Part shown: piece by piece, positions 7,077 through 12,001 of the stretch
Position numbering within the stretch: position 1 is the stretch's first letter
Layout of the letters: every line of letters begins with the position of its first letter
Assembly (NCBI GenBank): GCA_019930625.1
Contig: CP082844.1
Location: 496,001 to 560,000 of the forward strand
Direction: 5' to 3'
DNA: 64,000 bases
Origin: Nocardia asteroides
GTDB taxonomy: Bacteria; Actinomycetota; Actinomycetes; Mycobacteriales; Mycobacteriaceae
Translations under genes and position numbers: made by a program
Notes under the pieces: model-generated
What the model saw: the letters and a program-made list of their open reading frames with translations, nothing else
Told to the model about the DNA's origin: nothing
Databases searched by the model: none

Positions 7077-9125
7077 GTGCCCGAACTGCCGCCCGTTTCC
7101 GACCTTTTGGCCACCGCCGTGCAGGCGCTCGGCGGCAAGGAGCGCGCCGGGCAGGTGACGATGGCCGCGGCGGTGGACCACGCGATCGACACCAAGGAGC
7201 ACCTCGCGGTGCAGGCCGGGACGGGTACCGGCAAGTCGCTGGCCTATCTGGTGCCCAGCCTGCGTCACGCGGTGCGCACCGGCCGTACGGTCGTGGTCTC
7301 CACGGCGACGATCGCGCTGCAGCGTCAGCTGGTCGACCGTGACCTCCCCCGGCTGGCCGAGGCGCTGAGCGCACCGCTGGGGCGCACCCCGAAGTTCGCG
7401 ATCCTCAAGGGACGCAACAACTATCTGTGCTTGAACAAGATCAACAGCGCCGTTCCGGACGAGCCCGCCGAAGCGGAGCTGTTCGACGCGTTCGCGATCT
7501 CCCGCCTCGGGCGCGAAGTGCAACGGCTCAACGACTGGGCCTCCGACACCGAGACCGGCGACCGCGACGAACTCGCCCCCGGGGTGAGCGACCGCGCCTG
7601 GCGGCAGGTCAGCGTGTCGTCGCGGGAATGCCTCGGCAAGTCGCGCTGCTCCTTCGGCCAGGACTGCTTCGCCGAGCGCGCCAGGACCGAGTCCGCGCAG
7701 GCCGATGTGGTGGTGACCAACCACGCGCTGCTGGCCATCGACGCCATCAGCGGCATCCAGGTGCTGCCCGAACACGACGTGGTGGTCATCGACGAGGCGC
7801 ACGAGCTGGTCGACCGGGTCACCGGCGTGGCCACCGCCGAACTGGCTTCCGCCGCGATCAGCGCGGCCGCACGGCGCTGCGCCAAGCTGGTCGACGAGCA
7901 GGAGCTGGACCGTCTGGAGGGCGCCGCCGAGGCATGGCACGAGGTGCTGGAGGAACTGCCCGCCGCCCGGTGGGACAGACTGCCCGACGGCGTCGCCCCG
8001 GTGCTGGCTCTGATCCGCGACGCCGCGTGGAACGCGCGCACCGCGCTGGCGCCACCGGGCAGCACCACCGCGCAGGGCGACCCGGAGAACGCCGCCGCCC
8101 GCACCATGGCGTTGGCCGCGATCGATGAGGTGCACGACAGCGCGGTCCGCGCGCTGACGGCCTTCGACGAGCCCGACCCGGCCGCCCGGCGCGACGTCAT
8201 CTGGCTGGCCGCCGACGAGATCCGCGGTGTCGTGCGCCGATCGCTGCGGATGGCGCCGCTGTCGGTGGGTGGCCTGCTGCGCAGCAGGCTTTTCGGCACC
8301 GCCACCGTCGTGCTGACCTCCGCGACGTTGCAGATCGGCGGCTCGTTCGACGGCCTCGCGGTCACCTGGGGCCTGCCCGCGCAGTCGGGCAGTCGCACCG
8401 ATGCGGCCACCGCGAACGGCGCGGAGGCGCCGTCGGACGCCGACACCGTGCGCTGGAGTTCGCTCGACGTCGGATCACCGTTCGACCACGCCAAGTCCGG
8501 CATCCTCTACGTCGCCAAACACCTGCCCCCGCCGGGCCGGGACGGGCTCGCACCGGCCTATCTGGACGAGATCGAACGGCTCATCACGGCGGCGGGTGGG
8601 CGCACCCTCGGTTTGTTCTCCTCCATGCGCGCGGCCCGCGCGGCCACCGACGCCCTGCGCGACCGGTTGCGAACGCCCGTGCTGTGCCAGGGTGACGACG
8701 CGACGGGCGCGCTGGTCCGCAAGTTCGCCGACGACCCGGAGACTTCCCTGTTCGGCACCTTGTCGCTGTGGCAGGGCGTCGACGTGCCAGGCCCGTCGCT
8801 GAGCCTGGTGATTCTCGATCGCATCCCGTTTCCGCGCCCGGACGATCCGCTGCTGGCCGCCAGGCAACGCGCGGTGGAGATGCGGGGCGGAAACGGGTTC
8901 ATGACCGTCGCCGCCAATCACGCGGCTCTCCTGCTCGCGCAGGGTACCGGGCGCCTGCTGCGCAGCGTCGACGATCGCGGCGTGGTCGCCATCCTCGATT
9001 CCCGCCTGGCCACCGCACGCTACGGCGGGTACCTGCGCGCGTCGCTGCCGCCGTACTGGGAGACCGCGGACCCGGAGGTCGTGGTGAAGGCGTTGCACCG
9101 ACTGGCCGCAGCGGCCACGGTGTGA
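7077..9125 (+). CDS. dinG: DinG/XPD-type ATP-dependent DNA helicase
   Basis: A 682-residue superfamily 2 helicase. Walker A is AGTGTGKS (residues 47-54) and the Walker B box is VVIDEAHEL. A cysteine-containing stretch between them (CLNK and ECLGKSRCSFGQDC) fits the iron-sulfur cluster of the XPD/DinG family. The C-terminal domain carries LFGTLSLWQGVDVPG and QGTGRLLRS, motifs V and VI. It is the counterpart of Rv1329c. It starts at a GTG 57 bp after pncA. The role is probably repair or unwinding of structured DNA; the exact substrate is not evident. Confidence 0.9.
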   Translation: MPELPPVSDLLATAVQALGGKERAGQVTMAAAVDHAIDTKEHLAVQAGTGTGKSLAYLVPSLRHAVRTGRTVVVSTATIALQRQLVDRDLPRLAEALSAPLGRTPKFAILKGRNNYLCLNKINSAVPDEPAEAELFDAFAISRLGREVQRLNDWASDTETGDRDELAPGVSDRAWRQVSVSSRECLGKSRCSFGQDCFAERARTESAQADVVVTNHALLAIDAISGIQVLPEHDVVVIDEAHELVDRVTGVATAELASAAISAAARRCAKLVDEQELDRLEGAAEAWHEVLEELPAARWDRLPDGVAPVLALIRDAAWNARTALAPPGSTTAQGDPENAAARTMALAAIDEVHDSAVRALTAFDEPDPAARRDVIWLAADEIRGVVRRSLRMAPLSVGGLLRSRLFGTATVVLTSATLQIGGSFDGLAVTWGLPAQSGSRTDAATANGAEAPSDADTVRWSSLDVGSPFDHAKSGILYVAKHLPPPGRDGLAPAYLDEIERLITAAGGRTLGLFSSMRAARAATDALRDRLRTPVLCQGDDATGALVRKFADDPETSLFGTLSLWQGVDVPGPSLSLVILDRIPFPRPDDPLLAARQRAVEMRGGNGFMTVAANHAALLLAQGTGRLLRSVDDRGVVAILDSRLATARYGGYLRASLPPYWETADPEVVVKALHRLAAAATV

Positions 9126-9221
9126 TACCGAACACACCGCTCGGCATCTAATTCCATTCGGAAGTAGATTGTTGGTCGGTACTTCGGTGACCCCCAATTC
9201 CCACACCGAATGTATCGGCTC

Positions 9222-9256
9222 GTCCCCGCGCCAAGCCCTGCACGCGGCGCGGGGAC
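9222..9256. terminator. Inverted repeat between convergent dinG and ridA
   Basis: An 11-bp perfect inverted repeat (GTCCCCGCGCC at 9222-9232, complement at 9246-9256) with a 13-nt loop lies between the ends of two convergent genes. No U-tract follows on either strand, as is common in actinomycetes. It is probably a bidirectional terminator. Confidence 0.6.
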
Positions 9257-9287
9257 CTCACCGAATTCATCTCCGCACAGCGGCTGC

Positions 9288-9683
9288 TCAGCCGCGCACG
9301 GCCACCGCGTCGACCTCGAACAGCATGCCCGGCAGCGCGAGCGCCGCCACCCCGGTCAGCGTCTGCGCGGGCGGGCGGTCACCCCAGATCTCCGCGATCT
9401 TCTTGCCCAGCACCGCCAACTTGTCGAGGTCGTGGTCGACGATGTGCGTCCGCAACTGCGCGACATCGCCGAAGTCCACTCCCGCCGAGCGCAGCGCGAT
9501 GCCCAGGTTGGCGAACGCATTGTCCACCTGCACGGCGAATTCCGTGCTCGTGGTGTGCCCTTGCCCGTCCGAGTCGTACTGCCCGGCGATGAACACCAGT
9601 TCTCCACGCGCCACCGCCACGTGGCTGTAGCCGAACCCGGTCGGATCGTGCAGTGCACCGGGATTGCTGATTTCGACGGCCAT
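9288..9683 (-). CDS. RidA family protein (YjgF/YER057c/UK114)
   Basis: A 131-residue small trimeric-fold protein. RidA proteins hydrolyse reactive enamine/imine intermediates from PLP enzymes; some relatives have other roles. Family features are GELVFIAGQYDSDGQGH near residue 30, the VDNAFANL segment, and THIVDHDL. The usual RidA arginine motif near the C-terminus is replaced by LPGMLFEVDAVAV, so this may be one of the Rid subgroups without proven imine hydrolase activity. A ribosome site (AAGGAAA) sits 2 nt before the ATG at 9683. An IS110 element is inserted within that 5' region, separating the gene from its original promoter. Confidence 0.85.
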   Translation of the reverse strand: MAVEISNPGALHDPTGFGYSHVAVARGELVFIAGQYDSDGQGHTTSTEFAVQVDNAFANLGIALRSAGVDFGDVAQLRTHIVDHDLDKLAVLGKKIAEIWGDRPPAQTLTGVAALALPGMLFEVDAVAVRG

Positions 9684-9694
9684 GGTTTCCTTAC

Positions 9695-9890
9695 CTTTCT
9701 TCTTGGGTGGTCGATCCCGTAGCCAGCGGGTTTCGAACTACCCAGGAGCGGCGGGTTTGGCTTGCATGGTTGTGCCGAGGTTCATGGCCGAAGGAGATTG
9801 GCCGCCCGCCGTTCCGCGACGACTCGACCGCTGATTGAGAGACGCGATCCGATCGCTGTGTAAGGACGAGACGGCGTGGTCGTCGGCTAC
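9695..9890 (+). ncRNA. Putative IS110 bridge RNA
   Basis: Three structured parts can be drawn. (1) A 5' hairpin at 9705-9743: GGGTGG-TCGA pairs with TCGAaCTACCC around an inner CCCG/CGGG stem. (2) A target-binding loop: outer stem 9749-9755 with 9805-9811 plus GGC 9759-9761 with GCC 9801-9803, an internal loop, and an apical stem GCCG 9774-9777 with TGGC 9785-9788. (3) A donor-binding loop: outer stem 9817-9823 with 9879-9885, CCG 9828-9830 with CGG 9872-9874, and apical stem GCGA 9844-9847 with TCGC 9853-9856. Guide-like strings sit in the internal loops: CATGGTT 9765-9771, AAGGA 9791-9795, ATTGAGA 9834-9840, GTAAGGA 9860-9866. Transcript ends are approximate. Confidence 0.7.
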
Positions 9891-9924
9891 CTGATTCTTC
9901 GGTGTGAAACTGATGGAGGTGGTT

Positions 9925-11115
9925 GTGCCCCAACAACTTTGGGCTGGCATAGACGCCGGTAAAGCGGCGCATCACTGCACGGTGATCGATACCGACGGCA
10001 AACGGGTGCTGTCGCGGCGGGTCGACAACGACGAGGCCGAACTGACCGGCCTGATCGATGACGTGCTCGCCGTGGCCGACAGTGCGGAGATGGTCTGGGC
10101 GATCGATCTCAACACCGGCGGCGCCGCCCTGCTGATCACGGTGCTGCTGGGCCGTGGTCAGCGGCTGCTCTACATTCCCGGCCGTACTGTCCACCACGCC
10201 GCGGCCGGATACCGTGGCGACGGCAAATCCGACGCCAAGGACGCCGCGATCATCGCCGATCAGGCCCGCATGCGCCGCGACCTGCAACCCTTGCGTGCCG
10301 GTGACGACATCGCCATCGAGTTGCGCATCCTCACCGCGGCACGCACCGACCTGGTCTGCGACCGCACCCGGGCGATCAACCGACTGCGCGCGAGCCTGCT
10401 CGAGTACTTCCCCGCTTTGGAACGTGCCTTCGACTACAGCAAGTCCCGGGCGGCGCTGATTCTGCTCACCGGCCACAACACCCCCGACGGGCTGCGCGCG
10501 CTCGGCGCGACCGCGCTCGAAGCTTGGTTGCGAGAACGCAAAGCCCGCAACGCTTCTGCCGTCGCAGCCACGGCCATGACGGCCGCCGAAGCCCAGCACA
10601 CGATCGTACCCGGCCAGCAGATCGGCGCGGCCATGGTCGCGCGACTGGCGAAGGAGGTGATGCGGCTCGACAACGAGATCAGTGGCACCGAAGCATTGAT
10701 CGAGCAGCGATTTCGCCGCCATCCTCACGCCGGGATCATCGTGAGCATGCCCGGATTCGGGCCGCTGCTGGGCGCGGAATTCCTCGCCGCCACCGGCGGC
10801 GACCTGACCGTGTTCGACCGCGCCGACCGGCTGGCCGGCGTCGCCGGACTGGCGCCGGTACCCAAGGATTCCGGCCGCGTCAGCGGCAACCTCACACGTC
10901 CCCGCCGCTACGACCGCCGCCTGCTGCGTGCCAGCTACCTCGCCGCCCTGATCGCCGCCCGCTTCGACCCGGCCTCCAAGGCCTACTACCAGCGCAAAAG
11001 AGCCGAAGGCAAACGACACACCCAAGCCGTGCTCGCGCTGGCCCGCCGCCGCCTCAACGTCCTGTGGGCCATGCTCCGCGACCACAAGCCCTACCAAGCA
11101 GCCCCCGCCACCTGA
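9925..11115 (+). CDS. IS110-family transposase (bridge-RNA-guided recombinase)
   Basis: A 396-residue protein with the IS110 layout: an N-terminal RuvC-like DEDD domain beginning LWAGIDAGKAAHH with the first Asp, a conserved KSDAKDAAIIADQ stretch, and a C-terminal Tnp_20 domain with VSMPGFGPLLGAEFLAATGG and LAGVAGLAPVPKDSG, followed by the serine-bearing region. The GTG at 9925 was chosen because GGAGG (9915-9919) lies 5 nt before it; GTG 9904 and ATG 9913 are further in-frame options. The gene is full length with no frameshift, so the element may be active. The bridge RNA is encoded just upstream in the same direction. Confidence 0.9.
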   Translation: MPQQLWAGIDAGKAAHHCTVIDTDGKRVLSRRVDNDEAELTGLIDDVLAVADSAEMVWAIDLNTGGAALLITVLLGRGQRLLYIPGRTVHHAAAGYRGDGKSDAKDAAIIADQARMRRDLQPLRAGDDIAIELRILTAARTDLVCDRTRAINRLRASLLEYFPALERAFDYSKSRAALILLTGHNTPDGLRALGATALEAWLRERKARNASAVAATAMTAAEAQHTIVPGQQIGAAMVARLAKEVMRLDNEISGTEALIEQRFRRHPHAGIIVSMPGFGPLLGAEFLAATGGDLTVFDRADRLAGVAGLAPVPKDSGRVSGNLTRPRRYDRRLLRASYLAALIAARFDPASKAYYQRKRAEGKRHTQAVLALARRRLNVLWAMLRDHKPYQAAPAT

Positions 11116-11149
11116 CAACATCACCAATCCCCGAAATCACTATCTGGGC

Positions 11150-11155
11150 TTGACA
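11150..11155 (+). promoter_or_regulatory. TTGACA -35-like box in the IS110 right end
   Basis: A perfect TTGACA lies 35 bp after the transposase stop and 15 bp before the proposed core repeat. In IS110 elements the right end carries a -35 box that joins a -10 box in the left end when the element circularises, creating the bridge RNA promoter. The left end has TACCTT at 9692-9697, which would be spaced about 19 nt from this box in the circle. The pairing is inferred. Confidence 0.45.
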
Positions 11156-11305
11156 ACTTCATTGAGAATCTCCTTGCTCGATCGTCACGCGCTGCAACAC
11201 CACGACGACGATCCGGAATGCCACACTGTGACATGACGATGCCCACAAACGACCGCGGCGCGGCGGCCGAGGCCACCGCGCCGCGAATCCGGCTGTGTCG
11301 CAGAG

Positions 11306-11839
11306 TCAGAGCACCCACTTCAGGATCAGCGTGAGCACGCCCGCCACGACCGCCACGATCAGCGCACCGACACCCCACACGAAGCCGTGACGCCCCCACG
11401 GCCGCCCGGCGTCCAACGAGAACTTGCCGGGTCCGGTGAAGGGAAGCGCCGCGCCGACCACCGCGAACAGCAGGCCCATCTCCCAACCGCCCAACAGTCC
11501 ACCGGACCAGGTGACGTTGATCGCGTTGATCATCGTGCCCACCACGATCGCCCCGGCCAGCGGCGTCAGCAGACCGAGCAGCAGCAGCAGGCCACCGCCG
11601 AGTTCGGTCAGGCCGGCCAGCGTCCCGAACAGCTTGCCCGGGTTGTAGCCCATCTGCTCGAAGCTGTCCGCGTTGGCCTGTAGGCCCGGTCCGCCCCACC
11701 AGCCGAACAGTTTCTGCGCGCCGTGTGCCGCGAGCAAGCCGCCGAAGACGACCCGCAGGATCAGCAGGCCGATGTCGGTGGCGATTCCGTCCAGTTCGGT
11801 AGAGGCGCCGTTTCGGTCGAGTACGGATTTGATGGTCAT
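11306..11839 (-). CDS. DoxX family membrane protein
   Basis: A 177-residue integral membrane protein with four hydrophobic segments. The DoxX signature is LLILRVVFGGLLAAHGAQKLFGWWGG near residue 25, followed by AGLTELGGGLLLLLGLLTPLAG. Family members are quinone-linked or stress-related membrane proteins with poorly defined activity. The ATG at 11839 follows GAGGA with 6-nt spacing and was preferred over upstream in-frame ATGs. It lies downstream of the permease in the opposite reading order, with about 160 bp between, so it probably has its own promoter. Confidence 0.85.
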   Translation of the reverse strand: MTIKSVLDRNGASTELDGIATDIGLLILRVVFGGLLAAHGAQKLFGWWGGPGLQANADSFEQMGYNPGKLFGTLAGLTELGGGLLLLLGLLTPLAGAIVVGTMINAINVTWSGGLLGGWEMGLLFAVVGAALPFTGPGKFSLDAGRPWGRHGFVWGVGALIVAVVAGVLTLILKWVL

Positions 11840-12001
11840 GCTGGTCCTCATCCCTGCGCTGTCGTCTTCGGTATGTTCGTTACCTCGGCGAATAACCGGA
11901 CTACGGTCCGATTCTCGCATGAAGAGCTCAACTGTCCAACCCCTCGGTCCTATTCCACGACCGGCAGGCAAGGAAGGTTCAGCGCGAAGGCGAGCGGGAA
12001 G

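Follow-up and report, generated by a model that had tools for sequence, protein, structure and literature searches.

An IS110-family element at the start of a ridA-like gene in Nocardia asteroides and its candidate bridge RNA with readable target and donor guides

The window analysed here, a 64,000-nucleotide stretch of Nocardia asteroides DNA, contains an IS110-family element on the forward strand at positions 9688–11168 (1481 bp with one copy of its core), with boundaries based on empty sites from the same genus and on an isogenic pair available for a relative. Its transposase gene (9904–11115, forward strand, 403 aa) matched PF01548 (E = 1e-46) and PF02371 (E = 1.9e-18), both exceeding the cut-off, and NF033542, the IS110 family RNA-guided transposase model, with 211.5 bits (threshold 140). 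Alignment with IS621, for which an offset of two was counted between chain and paper numbering, placed S323 against S241 of IS621; D110 and D113 aligned only weakly with D102 and D105, and D11 and E60 were not included in the alignment. To the left lies a ridA-like host gene (9288–9683, reverse strand, 131 aa, PF01042), which starts four bases before the element, at 9683 on the opposite strand, and is severed by the element from its own upstream region; a DoxX gene lies to the right. We interpret the locus as an IS110-family insertion sequence that probably inserts at a gene start by bridge-RNA-guided recombination, a reading to which we give a probability of roughly 0.88 from sequence comparison.

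The element is present once in the 7.4-Mb host genome, and a search of that genome for other close copies returned none, only one 46%-identical relative at three places and two short matches. The three copies of this IS110 relative (L002, L003, and L004) are equal in length (1447 bp when the same landmarks are applied) and have CATGGC(T/A)GGA in common in their left flanks and TCG in their right flanks; two of them lack a single T that the third has at its left junction. Among the best 120 of 5951 transposase matches, homologues at 84–98% identity were found, the closest (98%) from Nocardia gipuzkoensis, so the lineage of the element appears to be recent. The single copy, the length of 1481 bp compared with 1449–1455 bp in most close relatives, and an antisense frame that is unjoined to the right-end ATG (described below) would suit a decayed, immobile element whose guides are fossils at a locus inactive today. 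We regard such decay as unlikely, given that the element retains its transposase open reading frame (ORF), both ends, the core copies, both promoter halves, and all four guides and that close homologues point to a recent lineage.

IS621 has been described as encoding a DEDD and serine recombinase that works with an RNA from the left end carrying two guide loops; its insertion is scarless at a CT core, a promoter forms across the circle junction, and its right target guide (RTG) is 4 nt long, with longer RTGs reported for other orthologues (PMC11208160, PMC11208158). A seekRNA has likewise been described as guiding target choice in IS1111 and IS110 elements, with a non-coding region implicated (PMC11187229). 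The window element would share an RNA guide and the involvement of the non-coding region with the seekRNA systems; IS1111 elements differ from it by their subterminal inverted repeats.

The predicted bridge RNA region (9697–9889, forward strand, ends approximate) precedes the transposase gene and contains, on the forward strand, four guides in the order left target guide (LTG), RTG, left donor guide (LDG), and right donor guide (RDG). The LTG, CATGGTT (9765–9771), the start-codon half, equals host DNA at 9681–9687 on the forward strand, which is the complement of the ridA-like start and was placed as left target by empty sites and by checking the letters. The RTG, AAGGAGA (9791–9797), the Shine-Dalgarno half, is the reverse complement at 7/7 positions of TCTCCTT at 11169–11175 (forward strand), which comprises the core and the right target in the host and whose bottom strand, AAGGAGA, is the original Shine-Dalgarno sequence of the ridA-like gene. 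The LDG, ATTGAGA (9834–9840), equals 11161–11167 at the right end, and the RDG, GTAAGGA (9860–9866), is the reverse complement of the core plus left end at 9688–9694 (TCCTTAC). The LTG match adjoins the core, and the LDG match ends one base short of it. When the core is set to TC, the RTG and RDG become consistent, since each is then complementary to the core plus five bases. A sequence-only reading of the window had proposed a bridge RNA of the IS110 type whose guides follow this order and could be read from the letters, and all four matches were verified letter by letter; for the RDG, the complementarity to TCCTTAC stood and the interpretation of TCCTT within it as the core did not.

The core was located by comparison with empty sites. 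A search with the ridA end against 148 same-genus genomes gave matches in 111 at E values up to 0.001, many of them short, and returned 29 non-self ridA loci, of which the best 12 were read (L082–L093). The element was absent from all 12, and CTCC followed just past the start codon in every one. Seven read CAT-NNNT-TCTCC, five of these with CGTT-TCTCCTC; three read CAT-NNNN-(G/C)CTCC; and L091 and L093 read CAT-GGTC-ATCTCC. As the filled site reads GGTT-TCCTTACC at the left and GAGAA-TCTCCTTGCTCG at the right, the simplest empty site of the window element would be CATGGTT-TC-TCCTTGCTCG, with TC common to both ends; the two core copies lie at 9688–9689 and 11169–11170 on the forward strand, supported by the empty sites, the isogenic pair, and a check of the letters. 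This site would join 9687 to 11169 and is expected to read CATGGTTTCTCCTTG, as judged from orthologous sites of which the closest is approximately 91% identical and none is isogenic. The sequence-only reading had instead assumed a 5-bp core and an empty site joining 9687 to about 11171, predicted as CATGGTTTCCTTGCTCG. The distance from CAT to CCT proved longer than in that prediction by two bases in 10 of the 12 empty sites and by three in the other 2, so the assumption of a 5-bp core had made the site too short by these amounts.

Direct evidence on the core came from a relative with a 74%-identical transposase (L112) on a 26,019-bp M. intracellulare plasmid. Its left flank was found in eight plasmid records, namely itself, six of 24,567 bp, and one 30,582-bp M. 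kubicae plasmid, and three of the seven other plasmids were aligned. In all three comparisons the insertion was exactly 1452 bp and scarless, with TC as the sole overlap, which refutes the core TCCTT, and the filled and empty flanks were identical over 400 and 250 bases. The annotated gene to the left of L112 retains the same start and protein accession before and after insertion. This relative directly shows an insertion at a short core that left the target unduplicated, and the window copy probably arose in the same manner. Empty sites were also sought for L036 (one genome of 148 matched, with the same filled site), L113 (two records), and L111 (one record), and all were filled; the flank of L165 gave distant matches in 17 records.

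Across relatives, the core was TC in 32 of 36 right ends, GC in two, and GT in two, and the left and right cores were the same in 29/29 cases. L118 and L207 have the core GT and L010 and L165 the core GC, with right target guides altered to match in all four and right donor guides too altered to match in L010 and L165; in these elements, the core has apparently undergone natural reprogramming.

To compare guides with flanks more widely, relatives were collected from genome contigs, further genomes, and 21 plasmid regions, and fixed motifs of the loops and ends were used to parse 164 loci with a transposase match. Fifty-four loci passed (48 distinct), and 110 failed the loop anchors and were left out, many of them distant or partial and over forty of 58–76% identity. 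L183 and L186, two of those that failed, were read by eye and kept outside the counts, and the RTG matched at 7/7 in both. L114, L081, and L187 were removed before counting as places already entered as L001 and L009, as were six elements whose guides and flanks duplicated those of others (L182, L180, L011, L010, L202, and L162); L076 was left out of the left-guide count because its left end is apparently misplaced. L015, possibly a remnant, matches the left end and the RNA region over 253 bp and has no transposase hit at E 1e-8.

Among 36 distinct elements, the RTG matched the element's own right flank at 7/7 in 31, at 6/7 in four, and at 4/7 in one (L013). The earlier view that this guide matches only the core, leaving recognition to the right weak or undetected, is contradicted by these matches and by the 7/7 pairing in the window. 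Non-core RTG matches averaged 4.81/5, compared with 1.84 ± 0.26 when flanks were permuted, and none of 20,000 permutations was as high. Because relatedness inflates such permutation tests, guide types were also tested singly; with one element for each of the 15 RTG types the value was 4.73/5 against 1.83 ± 0.36, again with 0/20,000 as high. The register was sharp, with 6.73/7 matches at offset 0 and no more than 2.33 at any of ten others. For the LTG, scored as the best of four registers in data and null alike, the 36 elements gave 5.61/7 against 3.43 ± 0.17 (0/20,000 as high). LTG types without CATG (15 types) gave 6.0 against 3.16 ± 0.31 and those with CATG (12 types) 5.67 against 4.58 ± 0.23, each with 0/20,000 as high; in a smaller first run, 3 of 10,000 permutations were as high for CATG-type left guides. 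The RDG was not counted as evidence across relatives, because the left end had been located by that very complement and the comparison is circular.

Left-guide matches were imperfect in several elements under the same best-of-four scoring, namely L112 (4/7), L149 (3/7), and L171 and L165 (both 2/7); L112 is a recent insertion, yet its LTG matches at only 4/7. Pairing of the LTG extends across both positions of the core in 21 of 36 elements with wobble allowed; in the window copy it reaches one position, by wobble. On the sequence-only reading, copies with the same loop 1 should stand beside related left flanks; among three pairs of identical elements this held for L113/L037 and L144/L007 and failed for L149/L150, whose left flanks are largely unrelated (LTG 3/7 and 5/7) and whose right flanks agree.

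A later set was obtained by searching 346 genomes of another genus with the L113 RNA region, which gave 22 loci, of which 18 were parsed, 15 of them with a right end, and four were unparsed; L236, L240, L243, and L245 were places seen before. The RTG matched at 7/7 in seven of the 15, at 6/7 in five, and at 5/7 in three, the last being one site in three genomes; without three known places, the counts were five, four, and three (n = 12). L247, L248, and L249 share this insertion site in the three genomes, with an RTG match of only 5/7 and without a long host ORF, and their left guide reads TCCATAT-TC like the target.

These matches bear on whether the transposase protein itself chooses the target, with the right-hand TCTCCTT being element DNA and loop 1 simply matching the element. 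Close copies carry the same TCTCCT beyond their right end, and the pairing of the RTG has the same form as that of the RDG, as such an account would expect. The empty sites themselves carry CTCC, however, the isogenic pair places TCTCCTTCGG entirely in the host, and relatives with other RTGs have other right flanks (TCAGTAG, TCACTGA, GTAGTTC, GCCTTTC, and more) that match their own guide. We consider target choice by the protein highly improbable.

The region 9697–9889 was predicted to fold into three units (−92.6 kcal/mol, z = −3.68; matched or bettered by 1 of 200 shuffled sequences), a 5' hairpin at about 9704–9744, a target unit at about 9745–9814, and a donor unit at about 9816–9885. Twenty-nine elements, namely 27 of the 54 parsed ones together with L183 and L186, were aligned with MAFFT and folded with RNAalifold; the consensus structure contained two stem-internal-loop-hairpin units in which the LTG and RTG, and the LDG and RDG, form the two sides of the loops. 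In its 35 conserved pairs, 98.0% of cells pair and 13 show changes on both sides; none of 500 shuffles reached any of five structure measures, and slid partners paired at 25–59%. The two loop units proposed from the window sequence were thereby recovered, whereas the 5' hairpin proposed with them was found in the window's own fold and was absent from the 29-element consensus. An Rfam search of 9000–12000 at E up to 1 returned two sub-threshold matches only, to unrelated families.

Joining of the right end to the left end would bring TTGACA (11150–11155, forward strand) to a 17-nt spacing from TACCTT (9692–9697, forward strand; a TANNNT sequence pattern) as the −35 and −10 halves of a predicted circle-junction promoter. 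TTGACA-N17-TANNNT was found across the junction in 28 of the 29 elements, and this spacing requires that the core be counted once as TC. We therefore propose that, in an excised circle, the right end joins the left end across one TC and the resulting promoter would transcribe the bridge RNA. The target loop would then hold the transposase on the site, with AAGGAGA pairing with the right half and CATGGTT with the left half, the donor loop would pair with the circle junction through ATTGAGA and GTAAGGA, and exchange at TC would give insertion without duplication. That the RNA is made and guides the transposase is suggested by these features of the DNA.

As in IS621, the transposase would be a DEDD and serine recombinase, the LTG, RTG, LDG, and RDG lie on the same strands in two internal loops of an RNA encoded at the left end, a promoter is predicted at the junction, and insertion is scarless around a dinucleotide core. 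The window family differs from IS621 in its core (TC, with few GC or GT, instead of CT) and in its RTG (7 nt including the core instead of 4 nt). Its left guides are often unpaired with the core, in contrast to IS621, where the core takes part in every guide pairing, and a single guide is found with CAT-to-core distances that differ by as much as three bases.

The bottom strand of the target reads AAGGAGA-AACC-ATG, a Shine-Dalgarno sequence and a start codon. Since the target guide spells both in inverse orientation, the element would land between the two. Close relatives likewise have a Shine-Dalgarno plus start target with varied letters, and their host ORFs (79 to >424 codons) start at the CAT, with a TTG start instead in L184. 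In five plasmid cases drawn from the 21 plasmid regions, the annotated start fell exactly at the site in four (L112, L113, L164, and L165) and inside the element in the fifth (L111). In the later set, an ORF of at least 79 codons began from ATG or GTG at 6–10 bases in 12 of 18 parsed loci, and no long host ORF was found at L237, L244, L257, or the site shared by L247–L249. In the window's own genome, 24 places matched the target with at most two mismatches, compared with 11 for a reversed control (binomial P = 0.02), and an ORF of at least 80 codons began at 17 of these 24, compared with 118 of 321 nearby control CATs (Fisher P = 0.0012).

A tree of 31 rows, for which both the selection and the Shine-Dalgarno plus start labels were made by the analyst (that of L184 relying on its TTG start), contained a 13-row clade with support of 99/93, in which 11 rows carried the label and two were unlabelled. 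RTG letters varied within this clade (AAGGAGA, AGGAGGA, AGGGGGA, and AAGGGGA). The label needs five changes on the tree, which implies several gains or losses of it, and it also occurs outside the clade. The gene-start position could instead be a by-product of insertion survival, the Shine-Dalgarno–ATG pair being meaningless to the guide; Streptomyces relatives read other sites, such as TCAGTAG, and share TAAGGA, and guides vary freely. Such an origin appears improbable, although less so than decay of the element, given that all 11 labelled rows of the clade lie at a Shine-Dalgarno plus start despite their varied guide letters. L168, L169, and L170, on Streptomyces plasmids, have TCAGTAG guides and lie beside winged helix-turn-helix genes, with transposase genes in two of three, as if another mobile element were targeted.

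Spacing to the start codon varied under a single guide. Among elements whose left guides agree over 13 letters, the CAT-to-core distance was 7 in L111, 8 in L113 and L037, and 9 in L112, and L238 and L254, with one guide in one genome, had distances of 10 and 7. The start-codon half thus probably acts as an anchor with slack before the core, and the spacing between the guide halves would be flexible, like the natural spacing from Shine-Dalgarno to ATG.

Start-site targeting by IS900 has reportedly been in print since 1997, in work by Doran. IS900 of Mycobacterium avium subsp. paratuberculosis is described as targeting CATGN6TCTCCTT at translation initiation signals and as carrying an antisense ORF, 'hed', over the element (PMC8141618). 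The window element resembles that description in its insertion at translation initiation signals, its CATGN..TCTCCTT motif, and its antisense ORF, and differs in that its site reads CATGN3TCTCCTT and its antisense ORF is unjoined to the right-end ATG. The part of PMC8141618 available does not mention a bridge RNA for IS900, and the available text of PMC11187229 mentions neither IS900 nor start-site targets. Among the matches listed in a literature search, preprints aside, no title or abstract beginning tied IS900 or start-site targeting to a bridge RNA. IS621 had already provided the mechanism and IS900 the targeting of start sites; new here are start-site targeting read through a bridge RNA, a TC core with isogenic proof, and slack between the guide halves. 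If this is correct, the puzzle of IS900-type start-site targeting becomes a readable, testable sequence in which the target motif is the guide. It would also offer a family of bridge RNAs in which the core is TC, the right guide measures 7 nt, and the left spacing has slack, together with many natural guide/target pairs and one isogenic pair of filled and empty sites, and would suggest how a mobile element addresses many gene starts while possibly leaving the genes usable.

On the ridA side, AAGGAGA-AACC-ATG before insertion has become GTAAGGA-AACC-ATG. Because the core GA is retained, TAAGGA (9688–9693, reverse strand), which overlaps a TAA, replaces AAGGAG in the same seven-letter block, and its AAGGA lies two bases closer to the ATG than the original. 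TAAGGA has six letters of the Shine-Dalgarno consensus. The original Shine-Dalgarno sequence now stands upstream of an ATG in the right end (TCTCAATG). This exchange is a fact of the DNA, and its function is a suggestion from it: the left end may supply TAAGGA for the lost Shine-Dalgarno sequence, about two bases nearer the ATG, so that the host gene might still be translated. Against adaptation, TAAGGA is required by the RDG and overlaps the −10 box, and as relatives without start targets retain it, it need not have evolved for Shine-Dalgarno replacement; the lack of a codon-position signal in the antisense frame (below) points the same way.

The antisense ORF (9691–11127, reverse strand), 'hed'-like, ends at the left-end TAA and is open to it for 481 codons; the right-end ATG at 11160–11162 does not connect with it, as the frame of that ATG closes after 13 codons in the window. 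At 10 loci (8 distinct elements), a right-end ATG frame of 479–481 codons does end at the TAA of TAAGGA; in the later set an end-to-end frame was present in 9 of 15, six of them at new places. It is broken in L036, L184, L237, and L250, among others. The antisense ORF had no match in Pfam at E 0.1. In the RNA region, mean pairwise differences among 10 analyst-chosen elements, including that of the window, were 0.212, 0.210, and 0.204 at codon positions 1, 2, and 3, with no bias (permutation P = 0.56) and hence no sign of selection on a protein. There the antisense frame had no stop before the terminal TAA in 10/10 elements and 0/219 columns out of phase, compared with 1 to 4 stops in the other two antisense phases. 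GC-rich coding DNA seldom carries stops in the antisense frame that is in phase with its codons, and because this ORF is in phase with the codons of the transposase gene, its openness across that gene is weak evidence. We do not claim a protein product for it.

These observations allow a broader proposal, which we hold at about even odds: the bridge RNA would be a two-part, spacing-tolerant reader of translation starts, the trapped Shine-Dalgarno sequence would serve the antisense frame, and the left end would give the host gene a new Shine-Dalgarno sequence overlapping the TAA, so that the insertion would act as an extra upstream cistron and leave the gene translatable. If true, this would explain why IS900-type elements target translation initiation signals. 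If transcription from the host promoter ran through 9691–11127, its product would be complementary to the bridge RNA and could conceivably silence the latter.
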